Origin: Bactericera cockerelli
Lineage: Eukaryota; Arthropoda; Insecta; Hemiptera; Triozidae
Assembly (NCBI GenBank): GCA_024516035.1
Contig: CM044959.1
Location: forward strand, 14,240,046-14,304,045
Direction: 5' to 3'
DNA: 64,000 nucleotides
The notes below the pieces were generated by a model, which saw only the letters and a list, made by a program, of their open reading frames with translations, was not told the origin of the DNA and made no database searches. Position numbers and translations under genes: made by a program. Position 1 is the first letter of the stretch. Every line of letters begins with the position of its first letter. Shown here one piece after another: positions 22,526 to 60,329 of the stretch.

Positions 22526-22654
22526 GGTGCTCCAATCAAAGCCCAAAACTTCTCCATCTAGTGTCTATGTAGTTGAGACTATCCAGGAGAAGAGAGCAGA
22601 CTTTGACCTCACTTATGACCCGTACCTGAACAGGGATGTCAAACATCCCACCAC
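22526..22654 (+). CDS. Transporter core exon 3 (N-terminal tail up to helix 1)
   Basis: Acceptor tttcgtttcag ends at 22525 and donor GTAAGT starts at 22655. The reading holds KTSPSSVYVVETIQEKRADF then DLTYDPYLNRDVKHPTT. The YDPY...VKHPTT block is the conserved approach to the first membrane helix in insect SLC36 proteins. The last codon is split 2+1 across the intron, and that intron holds the hammerhead ribozyme element. Confidence 0.93.
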
Positions 22655-22735
22655 GTAAGTCTGGCCTTTGTTACCATTATTTGTAAATTTCATTCCTGTA
22701 TGTCTCTTTTTAAAAAAATGATAGAAACCAAAGAC

Positions 22736-22955
22736 CAGGTATGTTCTGATATTCATGTACATCTAATACAACTTCTCACTTTTCTGTTTGTACTGATTAA
22801 AATAGAGAGATTAGTTGATGGCATGGATATTCAGAATTAATACCTGCTGATGAGAGCTAATAAGCTCGAAACAGCTGTCCAGGTATCTTCTGATATTCAT
22901 GTACATCTAATTCAACTTCTCACTTTTCTGTTTATACTGATTAATAATTTCTCTT
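22736..22955 (+). mobile_element. Retrozyme/Penelope-type tandem element with hammerhead ribozyme
   Basis: A 144-bp monomer (22736-22879) is followed head to tail by about 75 bases of a second monomer; both begin CAGGTATNTTCTGATATTC. The junction carries a complete hammerhead ribozyme whose predicted cut site is exactly the monomer boundary. Partial tandem dimers with a hammerhead at each junction are the layout of retrozymes and of the terminal repeats of Penelope-like retroelements. It sits in the transporter intron before exon 4, in the same orientation. A second locus with the same dimer arrangement lies at about 52416-52570. Confidence 0.8.
22840..22886 (+). ncRNA. Hammerhead ribozyme (type I, full core)
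   Basis: Stem I is ATACCTG (22840-22846) with CAGGTAT (22880-22886), 7 perfect pairs. The core CTGATGA is at 22847-22853. Stem II is GAGCT/AGCTC (22854-22858, 22863-22867) with loop AATA. The core GAAA is at 22868-22871. Stem III is the minimal form C-AGCT-G (22872-22877), then UC, with predicted cleavage after C22879. All invariant core residues are present in the right order. The very short stem III resembles schistosome and Penelope-type hammerheads, which often work better as dimers. Cleavage activity is inferred, not shown. Confidence 0.88.
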
Positions 22956-22977
22956 TCATCCAACTGATATTCCTCAG

Positions 22978-23128
22978 ATACTGGGACACCCTGTTGCACA
23001 TGCTGAAAGCAAGTCTGGGCACAGGCATTCTGGCCATGCCTAACGCCTTTCAAAACTCCGGCTATCTCATCGGAGTTGTGGGCACTTTACTCATCGGGTT
23101 CCTGTGTACCTACTCCATGCACATGCTG
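22978..23128 (+). CDS. Transporter core exon 4 (helices 1 and 2)
   Basis: Acceptor attcctcag ends at 22977 and donor GTAAGT starts at 23129. It encodes YWDTLLHMLKASLGTGILAM and continues PNAFQNSGYLIGVVGTLLIG and FLCTYSMHML, that is membrane helices 1 and 2. The GTGILAMP signature is the substrate-site helix of the amino acid/auxin permease fold. The exon ends in phase 0. Its last 15 bases and the donor are the seed of a 24-bp minisatellite that runs on into the intron. Confidence 0.97.
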
Positions 23129-23385
23129 GTAAGTAACTCCATGCGGATGCTTTTAAGCAACTTCATACACATGTTGGTAAGTAACTCCATGCACATGCTG
23201 GTAAGTAAGTCCATGCACATGCTGGTAAGTAACTACATGCGGATGCTGGTAACTAACTACATGCGGATGCTGGTAAGTAACTTTAGCTGGGAAGTAAGTC
23301 CATTCACATGCCGGTAAGTAATTTCATGCGCATGCTGGTAAGTAACTCCATGCGCATGCTGGTAAGTAAATCCATGCACATGCAT
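23110..23385 (+). repeat. 24-bp minisatellite copying the exon-4 donor site
   Basis: The unit is tccatgcacatgctg|gtaagtaac, with the exon-4 end, the donor and the first intron bases inside each unit. Donor-like GTAAGT copies stand at 23129 (the real one), 23177, 23201, 23225, 23273, 23294, 23314, 23338 and 23362; GTAACT stands at 23249 and the unit at 23153 is decayed. Units are multiples of three and the frame stays open from exon 4 to a TAA at 23315. Confidence 0.93.
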
Positions 23386-23641: not shown

Positions 23642-23849
23642 AATAACAATCTTTAGTGGAAGGTAACCACCAGGCGAGGTTAATGCTCAAAGCATTTTCT
23701 ACCACCTAACCCTCAGAGTCTTATTATTAAGTGGTCACAAACTCAAATTAATGAGGAAAAATTCATGCACTGGGTGGGATTCGAACCAACGGATCCCTAC
23801 GCTACCTGGATTACCAGACTAGCGCCTTAACAACTTGACTACCAGTGCA
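23642..23849 (-). repeat. SINE family B copy
   Basis: Full-length reverse copy next to a run of about 31 A (23602-23632), 57 bases before the exon-5 acceptor. Confidence 0.9.
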
Positions 23850-30950: not shown

Positions 30951-31017
30951 TATACTTATTCCAGGTGTGTGATATGTAAAGTATAATATACTATAATATA
31001 CATATTATGTATTCCAG

Positions 31018-31290
31018 GTGTGTGATATGTACCTGGGGGAGCAACACGTTCGCGTGTACATGCTCTACATCTTCGTCCCTTTGGTCCTCATCTGCTGGGT
31101 GAGGAACCTCAAGCTCTTGGCTCCCTTCTCCACCGTGGCCAACATCGCCACCGTGATAAGCTTCGGCATCACCTTCTACTATGTGTTCTCCGATGTGCCG
31201 TCCATGAGTGAGCGACGCGCTGTCGGCGAGTTCCACGGACTGCCGCTCTTCTTCGGCACGGTGCTGTTTGCCATGGAGGCGATAGGGGTG
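31018..31290 (+). CDS. Transporter core exon 7 (helices 4 to 6)
   Basis: Acceptor gtattccag ends at 31017 and donor GTGAGT starts at 31291. It is 91 codons: VCDMYLGEQHVRVYMLYIFV opens helix 4, TVANIATVISFGITFYYVF is helix 5, and LPLFFGTVLFAMEAIGV is helix 6. This is the only complete copy of the exon. Three partial copies of its first about 81 bases lie within 900 bases upstream, each with the same acceptor but no usable donor. Phase 0 at both ends. Confidence 0.96.
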
Positions 31291-31330
31291 GTGAGTTTGA
31301 GTAGAATTTGGGTTAACCCTTTCAATCCTC

Positions 31331-31666
31331 ATGGGATTATACGTCCCAGAGATAGCTGTTCAAGTGGGATTATATTATGTCCCAGAGATAGCTTTTCCTG
31401 TTCAAGTGGGATTATACGTCCCAGAGATAGCTTTTCCTGTTCAAGTGGGATTATATTATGTCCCAGAGATAGCTTTTCCTGTTCAAGTGGGATTATACGT
31501 CCCAGAGATAGCTTTTCCTGTTCAAGTGGGATTATAATGTCCCAGAGATAGCTTTTCCTGTTCAAGTGGGATTATAATGTCCCAGAGATAGCTTTTCCTG
31601 TTCAAGTGGGATTATAATGTCCCAGAGATAGCTTTTCCTGTTCAAGTGGGATTATTATATGTCCCA
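31331..31666 (+). repeat. 39-42-bp minisatellite after the exon-7 donor
   Basis: About 8.5 units of gggattatacgtcccagaga followed by tagcttttcctgttcaagt, in 39-, 40- and 42-base variants that alternate before becoming uniform. It starts 40 bases after the exon-7 donor. ORFs on both strands here are shadows of the repeat. Confidence 0.95.
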
Positions 31667-32778: not shown

Positions 32779-32984
32779 AGCCGACCTCCGTGGCTCAGTG
32801 GTTAAGAGCATTGGTTACTGACCCGGAGGTTGCGGGTTCGAATCCCGGCCGGAGCGGAAATTTCTGACCGAAATTTTCCGTTTCTGGAATGGCATGGATG
32901 TAAAGGTAAGTGCCCTGAAGTAATGCGAAAGCGGTTCCGGGGAACACTTACCTTTGAAAAAAAAAAAAAAAAAAAAAAAAAAAA
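32779..32984 (+). repeat. SINE family E copy with poly(A)
   Basis: Head gacctccgtggctcagtggt, B box cgggttcgaatcccggccgg, ending in about 26 A. It looks young because the tRNA-like part and tail are intact. It starts 23 bases after the exon-8 donor. Confidence 0.9.
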
Positions 32985-33830: not shown

Positions 33831-34065
33831 TTTGAACCTAGCAGGGCAGGCAGGACTGTGTGATCAACCATTGGTGTCGTAGTTAGTACGCCTCCTCATG
33901 GTTCACCCTGGGAAACGCATTGACATGCGGCTAAAGTACTGACAATTTTGGCGATCAGACAAACACTGCCATCAGATTTCCTGATCAAGTTTATTAGATA
34001 TGTCTTTGAGAAGTGTAATAAAGCCATACGATAAATAAATAAATACGACTCTTGTTTCCTTTCAG

Positions 34066-34304
34066 CTACATCAAGTACGGAGAGAAAGCGGAGGGTAGCA
34101 TCACTCTCAACCTGCCTCACGACGAGAAGCTGGCCCAGAGTGTGAAGCTCATGCTGGCGATGGCAATCTACTGCACGTATGCCCTGAGTCAGTACGTGGC
34201 TTTCGATCTCCTCTGGAACAACATCATCGAGCCAAAGCTGGAGAAGACCAAGATGAAGATCTACTACGAGTATGGAGTGAGGACCACCATCGTGATGATC
34301 ACGT
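34066..34304 (+). CDS. Transporter core exon 9 (helices 7 to 9), last one found
   Basis: Acceptor tcctttcag ends at 34065 and donor GTGAGT starts at 34305. It reads YIKYGEKAEGSITLNLPHDE, then helix 8 (LMLAMAIYCTYALSQYVAF) and the start of helix 9 (VRTTIVMIT). The exon ends with one base of a split codon, so a further exon with helices 10-11 and the C-terminus is required. None is recognisable in 34305-64000; it may lie in the gap, in the poor-quality stretch at 37.7-40 kb, or beyond the window. Confidence 0.95.
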
Positions 34305-34399
34305 GTGAGTATTATTATTGTAGGATTGTAGCCCTTTTAGGGGGTTTAGAAAACTTGGGGTTAAATTAACAAAGACATAGAGAAAGGAAAATTGTGCTG

Positions 34400-34873: not shown

Positions 34874-36010
34874 CTAAGTTAAGGTGGGCAAAAGGAGAAG
34901 CTTTCGAACGGGTCTAAGAAGTCTGCGTGCAGACGTTGTAATTTCCACAACACGTACAACACCATCTTGGTGAGGATGTATCTTGGTGATACGAGCAATG
35001 GGCCATTGCAAAGGCGCCATATTTTCTGACAAAACTAAAACGACATCACCAACTTTGACATTGTCAGATTGGTGATACCACTTCTGTCTTTGAAGCAGAG
35101 TATGCAAGTATTCGTCTGACCAACGCTTCCAAAAGTGTTGGCAGATCTGTGATACTAGAGTCCAGCAAGCAACAAAATTTGATGGTGACAAAGTTAAGTC
35201 GCGCTCAGGACGTGACAAAAGAGGCTGTCCAACAAGAAAATGACCAGGGGTAAGTACATCTAAATTATCCACGGTGGGAGATGGAACACCCAATGGTCTA
35301 GAATTTAAAATGGCTTCAATTTTCACCAAAACGGTCGAAAACTCCTCATAATGCAGAAGTCGATTGGTCAACACACGAGTCAAGTGAGATTTGACCGACT
35401 TCACACTCGCTTCCCACAGACCGCCCGCTGAGGGGTTGGCTGGGGCATTAAAGGACCACTTGATTTCTCGGCTACCTAAATGGTCAACAATGGAGTATTC
35501 ATTCTCCTGTAAGAAACGACAAGTGTCCTCGATGACATTGGCTGCACCCTTGAAATTGGTACCTTGGTCCGAAAATATCATGGACGGAACAGAACGCCTG
35601 GCAATAAACCGGTCCAATGCACCAAGAAAGCAGGCTGTGGAAAGCGAGGTAAGCAACTCAAGGTGAACTGCTTTTACAGAAAAACATACAAAAACGGCAA
35701 AATAAGCCTTCAGTGATGGAGCATTCCTACGATACCCATCCTTTATTAAGAACGGACCAGTTAGATCCACCCCTGTATTGACAAAGGGTCGGCACTGGTG
35801 GAACCGTGATAAGGGTAGCTCCGCCATCTGAGGCTGAGGAGGCTTGGCAGACAGACGGAAACATGGCAAACATTTAAAAATTATTTTTCGAACAAGGTTG
35901 CGCAGGCCAATAATAAAGTATTGACGCAGGATGAGAGTTTGGACAATTTGCGGGCCCCATGCAATGAATAAATATGAAAATGTCTGACCAGCAATATGGC
36001 CATATGACAA
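34874..36010 (-). pseudogene. BEL/Pao integrase and C-terminal domain
   Basis: A 378-codon minus-strand ORF. A zinc-binding remnant (KCLPC, residues 46-50) is followed by an integrase core with D82 (GVDLTGPF), D148 (FSDQGTNF) and E200 (GGLWEASVK), so the DDE triad is intact. The C-terminal part has LTPGHFLVGQPL and KVGDVVLVLSENMAP, typical of the domain that ends BEL/Pao polyproteins. It overlaps the upstream ORF by 130 bases in another frame; the single original reading is broken by a frameshift near 36000. It lies antisense to the transporter. Confidence 0.92.
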
Positions 36011-37668
36011 TTGTTTGGAAGAAGTACAGGATGACGGGAATGAAAAGGCAATGGTGCCTTGTCTATTCTACCCCCCACCCTGAGAACACCCCCATCAAGG
36101 AACGGGGACAGCCGAGCCAGTGAATCAGGCAACTGACGCCCAGACTGAACGGCCTCAATCTCTTTAGAGAAATGTCCTGACTGGGTAATCCTCACTAGGG
36201 TCAGCTCGGCTTGTACTAACTCATCGGTGGTCAAAGGGCCCACAGGTTTGGAAAGGGCACTGCCCGAACATCGGTGACGCCATCGAAGAATCCAGGCTGT
36301 CACGCGCTTGGCCCTAAACAAGGTAGAGAACCTTTTAATAAAACTAAAGTCCTCAGACTCCTGCACAACCTTTGTAACCAATGTGGTAACCTCAGCTGAC
36401 TTCAGCTCAGGAAGGCCCTCAACGGGTGTGAAAGTACTCATTGGCCAAAAGGAAATTTCCTGCTTTAGGAAAGGTGGACCATTCCACCACAAATAATGAT
36501 CAACAATAACACTAGGAAAACATCCTCGACTGGCCAAGTCAGCTGGGTTCAACTCAGTTTGAATATGTCTCCACTGAGACGGATCCGTTAATTCTAGAAT
36601 GCGCACCACCCGATTGGCAACAAACATCTTGAGCAAATGGGGCGGGGTGTGCAACCAGGAGAGGACAACCATAGAGTCCGAAAATAGATACTTGTTTGAA
36701 ATATTGAGACGGGTAATTAAAGGCCTCAGAGATTCAAGGACTTCAGCCAACATCACAGCTGCGCCCAGCTCTAGTCTTGGGACCGTTACCGGCTTCACAG
36801 GGGCCACTCGACTTTTGGCCCTAATTAAATTAATGAGGACCCGCCCATCTGTGCAGACAACGCGCAGATAAACTAGACACCCCATAGCGGAAAGAGAAGC
36901 ATCTGCAAATGCCACCAATTCCGGAGGAAAAATAAATGTATCCAGAATAAGTCTGGGAATACGAATTGACTCAAGCAGAGGGAGCTCAGAAGCAAACCTC
37001 TTCCACTCAGTCAAAAGGTCACCAGGCAAAACCTCATCCCAAGCTAGCCCTCTCAGCCAAATTACCTGGAGAAAAACTTTCATCCAACAGGTGACGGGGC
37101 ATAAAAAACCCGAGGTATCATAGATTTTGGCAATTTTTGACAATATTTGACGTTTGGTTTGGCAATTGCAATGTTGTTCTACCTTGTAACAAAACATATC
37201 CTGGCAAGGGTCCCACTGTAAACCCAATATCTTAATGGCATCAACATCATCAAATAAAGAGTGTGGCCTCTCCAACATGTCCTCTGGAAAATCTCCCAAG
37301 ACCCCAGGATGCGAACTGGACCACTTCCTCAGTTCAAACTTGCCAGCAGCAAGGAGGGACACTAGTTCATCCCGCATCCTGAGTGCCTCCTCAACAGAAG
37401 ATGCCCCAGAGACCAGATCGTCAATGTACACCTCACTACTTAGTGCACGGGCAGCCAAAGGGAACCTCGCCCCCTCATCAACAACTAGTTGCTTGATTAC
37501 TCGCTGGGCCTGAAATGGCGCAGAAGCGACACCAAAACACACACGCTGTATCTCATACTGCTGAATAGGCTGAGATGGATCCTCACGCCATAAAATCTGT
37601 TGAAACGGGCTGTCCCTAGGGTCTACCTTGATGGCACGGTAAGAAATAAAAACCCAAAATCTTTTCAT
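35881..37668 (-). pseudogene. BEL/Pao reverse transcriptase (partial) and RNase H region
   Basis: A 595-codon minus-strand ORF, homologous from about residue 10. The reverse transcriptase palm is present with VCFGVASAPF and the active-site YIDD at residues 81-84. The Pao-type peptidase/RNase-H-like region follows (RWSSSHPG-type motif, FADASLSAMGCLVY, TVPRLELGAAVML, LNPADLASRG), then the zinc-binding N-terminus of integrase. Gag, protease and the first part of the reverse transcriptase are missing; homology stops abruptly at about 37640 and the first residues are not Pao-like. Apart from truncation and the frameshift at its end it is well preserved, so it is fairly young. Confidence 0.93.
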
Positions 37669-38099
37669 TTTTAAAAATTAAAAATAATAAAAAACTTTTT
37701 TTTTTTTGTGTTATTTATTTTTTCAAAATTTTTTTTTAGGGGGGTTTTAGCGCAGAATCATAGGACCTTACCCTGAGCTCCCGGGGGGACAGACCCTTAG
37801 TGGTAAAAGGGAGCGCCTTTTTTTTAAAACCTGTTTTCCCTTTCCCGCAGCTTTCCCAGGTAGGGCAGCAGATGGGGCATGCTCGGGGATGGACTTTTGA
37901 TATGCAGCGAGCTGCTCACCCCTAGGTTCACGATGAGGGGGAAGGGGGGCTGGGGCCCCTTGTGGGGGTTCTTTACATTGGGGGGGAGGGGGGGGGTTTC
38001 ATGTGTGGGGGAAATGTCACCCAGGAAAAACCAGTTCAGCTCGATACTCTGGGAACCCCCATGTACGAGGGTTGTTTTTTTTTTTTTTTAATTTAAAAA

Positions 38100-38285: not shown

Positions 38286-38796
38286 TAATTTTTTTTTTTT
38301 AAATTTTTGACAATTCATTTTATAAACGGGAAGAGGGGGGGAAGTTCTACTAGATGTACATGAAATATCAAAAACTTACCTGGACACCCTGAGCAGAAAA
38401 AGGGCTTATTTGCTCTCTAGGCTTTATAGGGGCGGGCTCTGGACTAGAGTCGCTTTTTGTTTAGTGCGAGTATTTTAAAACCCAAAAGTTTTGGGTTCAG
38501 TAAGATATACAAATCATATAAAAAAACAAAAATTTAAGTTGGATCATAATTCATAGATAAAAACATTGTTGTTTTTTTTTAACCAGCTTGGCTGTTTTTT
38601 TAAAAACAGCTGGGGGAAATTAGTTATGGTCTCCAACCCAATTTTTAGTATTTAAAGTTGGCTTGTTCTGAATTTACATAGGGCAATGTGTGAACACTTA
38701 ATCGTGAGAACTTCGTCTGTTTCTCTATAAAACCAGAAAACCCCTAGGGAAAAATTGCGAGTGGCCCGGCTTTTTTTGGGAGTTGGCTAGTCTGTT

Positions 38797-43277: not shown

Positions 43278-43478
43278 GTGCACTGGTAGTCAAGTGGTTA
43301 ATGCGCTAGTCTGGTAATCCAGGTAGCGTAGGGATCCGTTGGTTCGAATCCTACCCAGTACACGAATTTTCCTCGTTAATTTGAGTTTGTGACCACATAA
43401 TAATTAGACTCTGAGGGTTAGGTGGTAGAAAATGCTTTAAGCATTAACCTCGCCTGGTGGTAACTTCCACTAAAGAGT
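43278..43478 (+). repeat. SINE family B copy inside the transposon
   Basis: Forward, near full length: gcactggtagtcaagtggtt, ggttcgaatcctacccagta, and an ATT-rich end. It post-dates the host transposon. Confidence 0.9.
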
Positions 43479-50079: not shown

Positions 50080-51055
50080 AAAGATTATTTTTTTTTTCGT
50101 CACTTTCAACTGCATGAGCATAATTTTACGACGGGAGTTTTATCCTCCATTCGCTGGAAACTCACAATCCAGCTACTCAAATTAACCTAACCCAGCGTGA
50201 GTGTGACCGGGAATAGCCAGCATCATGAGGGCTCGAATTTGAAAGGTCACCCATCTAAGTCCTATAACCTCGCTGGTCGTTGCTTAACTTTAGTGACAGA
50301 ACAATAAGTGTATTCAACGTGACATTGATGCTGGCTATGAGAAAGATTGTTCAATTGATTATTGTCATTTTGCACTGAATGGGTTTTTGCAAATGTGTTT
50401 TTTTTTTCTTTTCAAAATGATAGGTTTTATTGAGCATAGTCCAGCGTTGATGTCACGTTGAATACTTCATTTCTCGTAAAATAACTAAAGTTAAGCAACG
50501 TTCAGCTTGGTGAAATGCCCAAAGGTTTGAATCTTCGTGATGCTTGCTGTTTTCGACCTAAACTAAGCTAGGTGAAGATTTGAGCAAAATCGCAGATTCT
50601 TTGATTACCTATTTGACTATGCACTTGTACAAACAGTCAGTGATTAGAAGATTTTATAAATTAATTTATTATAGGTATAATAATATAATTATACATTTAT
50701 TAAATCTAATAGGTAGTAGGTAGTAGTATAAGTCTGTACCAGCCTTGACATACTGCTGTGGTCCTGATTTCGGTCAGGTCAGTACAATTTTAGCACCTAG
50801 TTTTCTTGTTTTTTTTTTCATTAGAGTTTAACGTCGTTTTTCAACTGCATGGTCAAACACGACGGGGGTTTTACCTTCCATTCGCAGTAAACTAAAAACC
50901 TGCTACCCACATTGACCTCACCTAGCCAGGGTTGGGCCGGAATGCCAGCATCACGAATTCTTCACCTTGCTGGACGTTGCTTAACTTCGGTGATCCTACA
51001 AGAACCGGTGCATTCAACGCGCCATCGACGCTGGCTATAATATAGTTTTCTTCGA
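50080..51055. repeat. Family F cluster, three copies
   Basis: Direct at 50080-50345, inverted at 50430-50600, direct at 50810-51055. Each has the ccattcgc, aacctcacc/aacctaaccc and gttgcttaac blocks. Confidence 0.8.
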
Positions 51056-52015: not shown

Positions 52016-52415
52016 AAAGGAGTAATTCTCAAAATTGAGACAGTATGAATCACTTCACATCGAAATTCTAAACTGCTTTCCCGCATTCTTCAGCACCATT
52101 CAAGACAACCAAACATGAATGTCGACGATTCTTTCCTGGTTATCATTCAAGCACATTCTCTGCTCTATCATTCAACATGAATGGTGCTTTCCACAATGCT
52201 CTTACATCCATAAGTTCACAACAGAACGGCAACTGTATGGGCAGAGAGGCCTGATGATAACCTCTGGGTTCATACCACCACGTTAATTCCCCGCTATATT
52301 GCTTCGTCCATTCATGATAAAAAGAGGGCTCAGTGTCGTGGGTGCATGGTGGAAAATTCTTGTTTCAGTAATTTTAATTTATTTTAAACCAAATTTTAAA
52401 AGGTAGGTACCATTT

Positions 52416-52570
52416 TCTCACTCTTCTGTTTAAACTGATTAAAATAGAGAGGTTAGTTGATGGCATGGATACTCAAAACTATTACCTGCTGCTGTCCAGG
52501 TATGTCTTGATATTCATGTACATCTAGTACAACTTCTCACTCTTCTGTTTATACTGATACTGATTTTAAT
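52416..52570 (+). mobile_element. Second retrozyme-like dimer, ribozyme core deleted
   Basis: The end of one monomer (ctcactcttctgttt to tattacctg) and the start of the next (caggtatgtcttgatattc) flank a junction reading ACCTG-CTG-CTGTC-CAGG. Relative to the intact copy, the bases between the two CTG triplets are gone, removing most of CTGATGA, all of stem II and GAAA. The flanks match the 22736-22955 element closely. The ribozyme here should be dead. Confidence 0.75.
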
Positions 52571-59730: not shown

Positions 59731-60329
59731 ACATCGCGGACTTTACTCAAGTCGTAAACACCGATTCATACCACCTCGAGATGTCTTATTTGTTTGTATA
59801 TAGGCTCCACCCTGTATACAAATAATTGCTTACGAATTAAACCAACACAAACTTCCATCTGATGTTGTATCCCAAAAGCAATTGCCCATGTAATGGATAT
59901 TGCTCCCGTAATTATTATCCACGTGAAATCTGCCGGTGCCTTGACGGGCCCGGGCTAAATGTGACGTGACAAATGAAGTCTTCGACACGAAACGTGTTGG
60001 AAATATGCGAGCGAAGCGTGCTAGCCTCTGACGTTTGTCCCGGCGCGGCGGCGGGCGGTTATTATAATAAGACTTAGTCTTTTTTTTATTTTTTTTTATT
60101 TTGGGTGAATAACCCTATTAGAGGGTTAATTTACAATATTATATTTTAAAGAGAAAAACATCGGAATATTTTAAACAAATTATTAGAAGGGGGAAAAAGT
60201 CTTATTATAATCAGTATAAAAAGAAAAGTGAGAAGTTGTATTAGATGTACATAATAATAATAAGACTTAGCTCACATTACCGCAGATGAAGTACAACTAC
60301 CTCTGCGTGCAAAAATCCTAATAATAATA

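Follow-up and report, generated by a model that had tools for sequence, protein, structure and literature searches.

A 206-base insert in an intron of a predicted amino acid transporter gene of Bactericera cockerelli is one insertion of a large dispersed family of non-coding elements, whose 144-bp unit carries a complete type I hammerhead ribozyme motif. Nearly all the copies that we compared end at one position of the unit, and it is very probable that this retrozyme family is copied from a fixed internal start. Whether a Penelope-like element (PLE) of the same genome acts as helper enzyme is an even question, and the steps that would connect these observations, namely cleavage, circle formation and internal initiation, are proposed here from genomic sequence. 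Coordinates refer to the window, that is the whole 64-kb stretch of DNA analysed (CM044959.1, 14240046-14304045).

The insert and its ribozyme

The insert, its ribozyme and the other copies of the family in the window are as follows.

22736..22941, + strand: whole insert, 206 bases or 1.43 units of the 144-bp retrozyme; 3' end at unit 62, 5' end at the cut-site position
22736..22879, + strand: first complete unit, 144 bp; genome matches at 93-97% and exact patterns
22880..22941, + strand: second, partial unit with the fixed 3' end (TTTATACTGAT); unit 61-67 is where copies stop in 57 of 60 loci
22831-22893, + strand: predicted type I hammerhead ribozyme with outer helix; sequence by eye, RF02275 at 36.1 bits, below gathering
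22831-22836 (TCAGAA) and 22888-22893 (TTCTGA), + strand: outer helix, 6 bp, read directly
TTA / C, + strand: internal loop between stem I and the outer helix, read directly
22840-22846 (ATACCTG) and 22880-22886 (CAGGTAT), + strand: stem I, read directly
22847-22853, + strand: core box CTGATGA, read directly
22854-22867, + strand: stem II, GAGCT-AATA-AGCTC, read directly
22868-22871, + strand: GAAA, followed by CAGCTG (22872-22877) and TC (22878-22879)
Between 22879 and 22880, + strand: predicted cut site, after TC
52415..52558, + strand: second family copy, ribozyme core deleted between two CTG
60203..60256, - strand: 5'-truncated single copy, unit 15-69
38341..38417, - strand: degenerate copy, unit 1-40, with a weak preceding 14-nt match

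Every hammerhead element named in the original prediction was found by direct reading, together with an outer 6-bp helix (TCAGAA/TTCTGA, across the internal loop) that had been overlooked there and that makes the motif a canonical rather than a minimal type I hammerhead. As GAAA precedes CAGCTG and TC, stem III of a single molecule would consist of two pairs at most, closing a four-base loop; alternatively, CAGCTG could serve as a palindromic helix joining two RNA molecules. The helices of the window copy (7 and 5 bp) exceed those of most copies, most of the others that were read having a stem II of the form GAGC-AAATAA-GCTC and a six-pair stem I. The proposed coincidence of the cut site with the monomer boundary holds, the 5' boundary of the insert (22735/22736) falling at the cut-site position of the unit. 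What had been described as a dimer is less than a full one: the 144-bp unit is followed by a partial second copy of about 62-65 bp, 95% like the first, which gives 1.43 units. The window unit has a GC content of 34.7% and contains no reverse transcriptase (RT) or GIY-YIG frame.

A covariance search at the locus supports the ribozyme in part: a local scan of 501 nt returned RF02275 (Hammerhead_HH9) at 36.1 bits (E 1.5e-7), which remains below the gathering threshold of 52, and Rfam applied to the whole 64-kb window found no hammerhead reaching its gathering threshold. A loose hammerhead core pattern occurs 7 times in the window for 2.87 expected, a count reached by 2 of 100 shuffles, and such a pattern alone is weak evidence. 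The 71-nt ribozyme stretch is predicted to be more stable than its shuffles (z -4.74, with 0 of 200 as good); the minimum-energy fold, at -23.3 kcal/mol, differs from the hammerhead, whose pairs give -17.3 kcal/mol, and this computed fold, which competes with the hammerhead, was counted against our best explanation. The strongest support for the hammerhead is its genomic recurrence, with 1,813 exact copies of the core.

Regarding the other copies in the window, the one at 52415-52558 has lost the ribozyme hairpin, the gap lying precisely between two CTG as though the enzyme had passed over the hairpin, and has a possible 16-bp flank repeat by eye, while the flanks of the one at 60203-60256 resemble mutual inverted copies (AAGTCTTATTATT / AATAAGACTT). 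The window also contains Rfam tRNA-like and 5S-like matches that resemble SINE heads (23766-23848, 43280-43362, 32786-32854 and 50943-51035).

A dispersed family of 144-nt units

The genome searched comprises 565 Mb in 1,032 contigs; a search for COX1 gave weak matches (39.9 bits at best), and none of these contigs was recognised as mitochondrial. In addition to the 1,813 copies of the ribozyme core (a 33-place pattern), it contains 2,643 exact copies of the 3' end (a 29-nt pattern), the backward control being 0 in both cases. Windows of 22 nt allowing up to two mismatches gave 5,668 copies for unit 17-38, 5,763 for 3-24 and 5,169 for 133-10 (backward controls 33, 0 and 0, respectively); the fall of these counts across the cut is confounded by mutation and by 5' minisatellites. 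The core pattern was found 0 times in viral contigs. Thousands of dispersed copies of the same 144-bp unit are thus present, as the proposal of a retrozyme-like element had anticipated.

Sixty loci were compared: the window, 39 loci from a first similarity search and 20 from a second, whose query spanned the cut, beginning at unit 50 and ending at unit 65. Since just 40 of 999 first-look candidates (first search) and 40 of 1,032 (second search) were scored, this sample is biased toward copies like that of the window. The unit is 144 nt long in 32 of 36 distinct genomic units, and tandem arrays reach up to 3.4 units (L009). The core is intact at 53 of 59 junctions and its letters are less variable (3/648) than those elsewhere in the unit (97/3,726), as counted at 54 of the 59 junctions, five being dropped for indels or divergence and the duplicate locus L011 being included. 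Units within an array differ less than units of different loci (1.83 versus 2.74 differences per 82 nt in 12 multi-unit loci, with 0 of 2,000 regroupings as low). Such a difference falls short of proving copying from one template, as 14 locus-private variants occur in just some units of their locus and 2 are shared by every unit.

Ends of the copies

With a query extending past the end, the 3' ends of these copies lie at unit 62 in 18 loci, 64 in 16, 63 in eight and 61 in six, and the exceptions to the 61-67 interval are L023 (unit 81) and L039 and L042 (units 23 and 24, disrupted by near-end changes). Where the match continues for a few bases beyond unit 62, this reflects either short chance similarity or the beginning of a re-copied tail. 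A re-copied tail piece, scored as ACTGA at most 20 nt past the end, is found in 35 of 56 loci (L011, L023, L039 and L042 being left out), against 3 of 56 in a control stretch 60-80 nt further on; these pieces span from ACTGAT to TTCTGTTTATACTGAT. By direct reading, there is no A-run or polyadenylation signal at unit 62.

The 5' ends, scored in 37 of the 40 loci of the second search (the duplicate L011, near-identical to L010 including its flanks, and two others were set aside), are ragged: 10 fall within the eight bases from 139 to 2 that span the cut, 22 within 3-54 and five within 55-138. The pile-up at the cut has P 0.0026 against the density of positions 3-54 and is weaker against a heavily smoothed null, in which an 8-nt window was as full in 242 of 5,000 trials; exact starts number one at unit 1 and three each at units 2 and 141. 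The pile-up may therefore reflect either cutting by the ribozyme or a halt of the enzyme on reaching it. In L025, L033 and L044 the 5' end bears minisatellites, with repeats of about 18-23 bases derived from the region of the unit start; they may reflect either repeated enzyme jumps at the cut end or later slippage.

Direct repeats in the flanks reach the 99% level of their null in 5 of 39 loci (L032, L024, L016 and L041 strongly, L028 at threshold), with duplications of 14 to about 75 bp, and none is present at the window copy. For inverted flank matches, the 99% level of the corresponding null is attained at 4 of 39 loci, the match in L046 resembling a SINE pair. The AT content after the insert is 72.5% for the retrozyme and 81.5% for the PLE (14 flanks), for a background of 61.2%.

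Folded as a circle, the window unit has a predicted energy of -40.8 kcal/mol, which relative to shuffled letters corresponds to z -5.3, with a mean of -39.6 over the 36 distinct genomic units. The predicted shape is a single rod, in which the ribozyme occupies one end and unit 55-64 lies close to the opposite one. Because the start base sits in the apical hairpin loop in only 15 of 32 motif-bearing units (baseline 9% of positions; unpaired in 19), we place the start site near the apex.

Penelope-like elements of the same genome

The genome appears to hold intact PLEs. It has 25 GIY-YIG matches, six of them with frames of 837-838 aa; in one frame (L078) an RVT_1 domain occurs together with a GIY-YIG domain, and a tandem pair of copies at C7:37208200-37214200 shows no difference over 2,404 bp. 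About 39 kb before the window, at CM044959.1 14200942-14201169, there is a PLE whose frame measures 837 aa.

Upstream (5') of the PLE frame is a hand-called hammerhead-like core, CTGACGA...GAAA-TGGCCA-TC, which, like the retrozyme, has a six-base palindrome between GAAA and TC. This core was absent from 5,000 of 5,000 letter shuffles of the PLE non-coding part, and the 45 nt around it are identical in 21 of 22 loci (L072-L094, the exception being the unrelated L076), the non-coding part elsewhere going down to 92% BLAST identity. Its stem II has an unpaired U, and Rfam gave no match for the PLE hammerhead.

Past the presumed cut, PLE copies end after 63-65 nt in 9 of 19 cases, after 128-129 nt in six, 137-138 nt in two, and 271 and 286 nt in one each. 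These ends were set by hand from 22 loci, L076 and the tandem run-ons L079 and L089 being dropped and L073, L083, L084, L088 and L090 trimmed of a chance match of 3 to 14 nt. The retrozyme end, about 62 nt past its cut, is close to the first PLE site, and the retrozyme has no counterpart of any of the further PLE ends; agreement within 2 nt of the first site has a chance of about 5 in 144. The original prediction had also linked the insert to Penelope-like terminal repeats, a claim that is not supported at the level of sequence, the 144-bp unit having no significant overall similarity to the host PLE. Nor was the alignment of the two start regions significant (92 of 1,000 shuffles were as good); over the last 10 nt, 7 positions agree, a level found at about 1% of non-coding PLE positions for a length picked among five tried. 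The 5' ends of the PLE, seen in three loci, show inverted junctions and no cut-site signal.

Relation to known elements

Animal non-LTR retrozymes are self-cleaving elements giving circular RNAs of 170-400 nt (PMC7229834; PMC7761336), with earlier genomic repeats of 150-450 bp (PMC7229834); since the former range describes known cases and is no strict limit, and genomic repeats as small as 150 bp are on record, we file the present family as a small animal non-LTR retrozyme. According to the same source, they have type I hammerheads and a GC content below 50%, are non-coding, occur as partial to several units and are expressed as linear and circular RNA; where target duplications are present, they exceed 4 bp (PMC7229834). 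The present family resembles them in its type I hammerhead, its short, low-GC, non-coding tandem units, its flank duplications above 4 bp and its coexistence with PLEs bearing hammerhead-like motifs; it differs by its unit of 144 nt, and the text available to us does not describe their ends as fixed (PMC7229834). Their enzyme is stated there to be unknown, LINEs and PLEs being candidates and PLEs preferred (PMC7229834; PMC7761336) on the grounds that PLEs and retrozymes share type I hammerheads, tandem occurrence and coexistence (PMC7229834). Cleavage rates quoted in that text are about 0.8 per minute for coral and 0.1 per minute for mussel hammerheads, and axolotl hammerheads whose helix III is very short cleave slowly in monomeric form and do better when dimeric (PMC7229834).

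For the anole PLE (PAc), the accessible text reports that copying has an internal start, at a position lacking homology to the cut DNA, which its authors had not encountered in other retrotransposons (PMC11167929). It also reports that ribozyme mutants were without effect on insertion, that reactions in vitro relied chiefly on unprocessed RNA and that no reads started or ended at the ribozyme cut (PMC11167929). PAc and the retrozyme share a hammerhead upstream of a fixed internal copy end and AT-rich flanks (PMC11167929), whereas the retrozyme encodes no protein and its sequence is different. The distance from cut to end would be about 85-92 nt in the anole PLE (our arithmetic from the published part), for 63-65 in the host PLE and 62 in the retrozyme. 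The fixed 3' end, the re-copied tails and the 5'-end anatomy, as deduced from genomic copies, appear to be new for animal retrozymes; in the open literature covered, mainly titles and abstracts, we found no description of a fixed 3' end.

HH9 (RF02275) is the best covariance match, and the motif has the type I form and the sense orientation in an intron in common with the amniote intronic hammerheads; it scores 36.1 bits, below the gathering value of 52, and is borne by a mobile repeat rather than being a lone conserved motif.

The transporter gene and its duplicate

The gene features around the insert are the following.

22526..22654, + strand: predicted upstream exon of the transporter gene; AG/GT borders, conserved in the duplicate gene copy
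22655..22977, + strand: predicted intron with the insert, 323 nt; GT...AG only, cut 225 nt from its start and 98 nt before its end
22978..23128, + strand: predicted downstream exon, PF01490 Aa_trans; E 1.8e-11 for 22979-23130
30997-31548, + strand: further PF01490 stretch; 23.0 bits, below the cut-off of 25.6
34043-34366, + strand: further PF01490 stretch; domain match

The placement of the insert, in sense, within an intron of an amino acid transporter gene agrees with PF01490 in three + strand stretches, one of them below cut-off, and with an intron called from GT/AG. A second copy of the gene region (L027), about 0.6 Mb away on the same contig, has the same insertion in the same place and is 90% identical to the window over 929 columns, a variable minisatellite included; the insertion therefore probably predates the duplication of the region. 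The L027 ribozyme would be damaged, as it has an internal 7-nt duplication and scores 25.4 bits to HH9. Hammerhead cleavage of the transporter pre-mRNA in the window copy is plausible, and this gene would then offer a natural self-cutting element placed in sense in a short intron, with the damaged duplicate as internal comparison.

Two observations concern the neighbourhood. A 24-bp minisatellite at 23112-23383 (11.6 copies, TRF), also present in L027, derives from the end of the exon together with the 5' splice site of that exon (ACTCCATGCACATGCTG|GTAAGTA); candidate 5' splice sites are therefore numerous there and recur every 24 bp (8 codons). BEL/Pao-type LTR pieces (Peptidase_A17, DUF5641 and rve) lie near a transporter exon at 34877-37677, on the - strand.

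Proposed mechanism and alternative explanations

We propose that the hammerhead cuts read-through transcripts, here the transporter pre-mRNA, and that reverse transcription of the resulting monomers, multimers or circles would begin at one fixed internal position, about 62 nt past the cut and near the apex of the rod. The cDNA would round the unit from less than once to several times and end at scattered points or at the ribozyme, so that the inserts would share a single fixed 3' end while differing at their ragged 5' ends. Since neither a circle nor a multimer has a 3' end at unit 62, an internal start like that of the anole PLE would be the simplest account, and the likeliest enzyme would be the PLE of the same genome. 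Going further, and with somewhat more doubt than conviction, animal retrozymes could be seen as parasites of Penelope-type RTs: a 144-nt rod-shaped circle would have the hammerhead at one end and, 62 nt downstream and near the other, a start loop placed like the PLE start, and a telomerase-related enzyme would start inside the circle, could re-copy the start loop and would roll round, ribozyme cutting setting many of the 5' ends.

These data bear on which enzyme moves animal retrozymes and on whether the template is a cut, multimeric or circular RNA. The fixed 3' end and the nearly equal end distance of the PLE make the published PLE proposal testable with one protein and one 144-nt RNA, a unit that falls below the reported size range of retrozymes. 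If retrozymes do prove to be parasites of Penelope RTs, the family would provide a minimal model, readable from the genome, of how circular RNA is copied.

Several other explanations have to be weighed against copying from a fixed internal start. That the insert is a satellite or tandem repeat in which the resemblance to a hammerhead is fortuitous is scarcely credible: some loci do carry short tandem arrays and loose core patterns arise by chance, but the copies are dispersed, have a fixed 3' end and, in some cases, flank duplications, and their core is less variable than the rest. Highly improbable, too, is that the insert is a piece of a PLE, namely its terminal repeat. Both have a hammerhead-type core with the same kind of six-base palindrome between GAAA and TC, and copies ending about 62-65 nt later; however, the unit is not significantly similar to the host PLE and recurs alone in tandem, at loci which, as read, have no PLE frame. 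Amniotes carry intronic hammerheads, and the ribozyme might likewise act as a host regulator, cutting the transporter pre-mRNA to tune its level. The sense orientation, the complete core, the helices of 7 and 5 bp, lengths that most copies do not reach, and HH9 as best Rfam match would fit this, yet 1,812 other exact core copies are dispersed in the genome and the duplicate gene keeps the insert with a ribozyme bearing the 7-nt duplication and only 25.4 bits, so that we regard host regulation as improbable.

LINE-driven SINEs have a fixed 3' end, short tail repeats and ragged 5' ends. The retrozyme copies look the same in all three respects, and they could belong to a SINE-like element moved by a LINE with which it has the 3' end in common; the tail would then be a LINE-type 3' microsatellite, and the hammerhead would do no more than trim the 5' side. 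LINE-type RTs are indeed abundant, with 10,614 first-look candidates, of which 150 were scored. We nevertheless consider this explanation somewhat unlikely, as nothing at unit 62, neither an A-run nor a polyadenylation signal, accounts for an RNA 3' end there, and as the 3.5 kb downstream of 20 RT loci gave no sense match to the retrozyme 3' end among the best 40 matches, these loci being drawn from the best 150 RVT_1 matches, a sample outside which most LINE clades fall. The only good match among those 40 was an antisense retrozyme fragment in L069.
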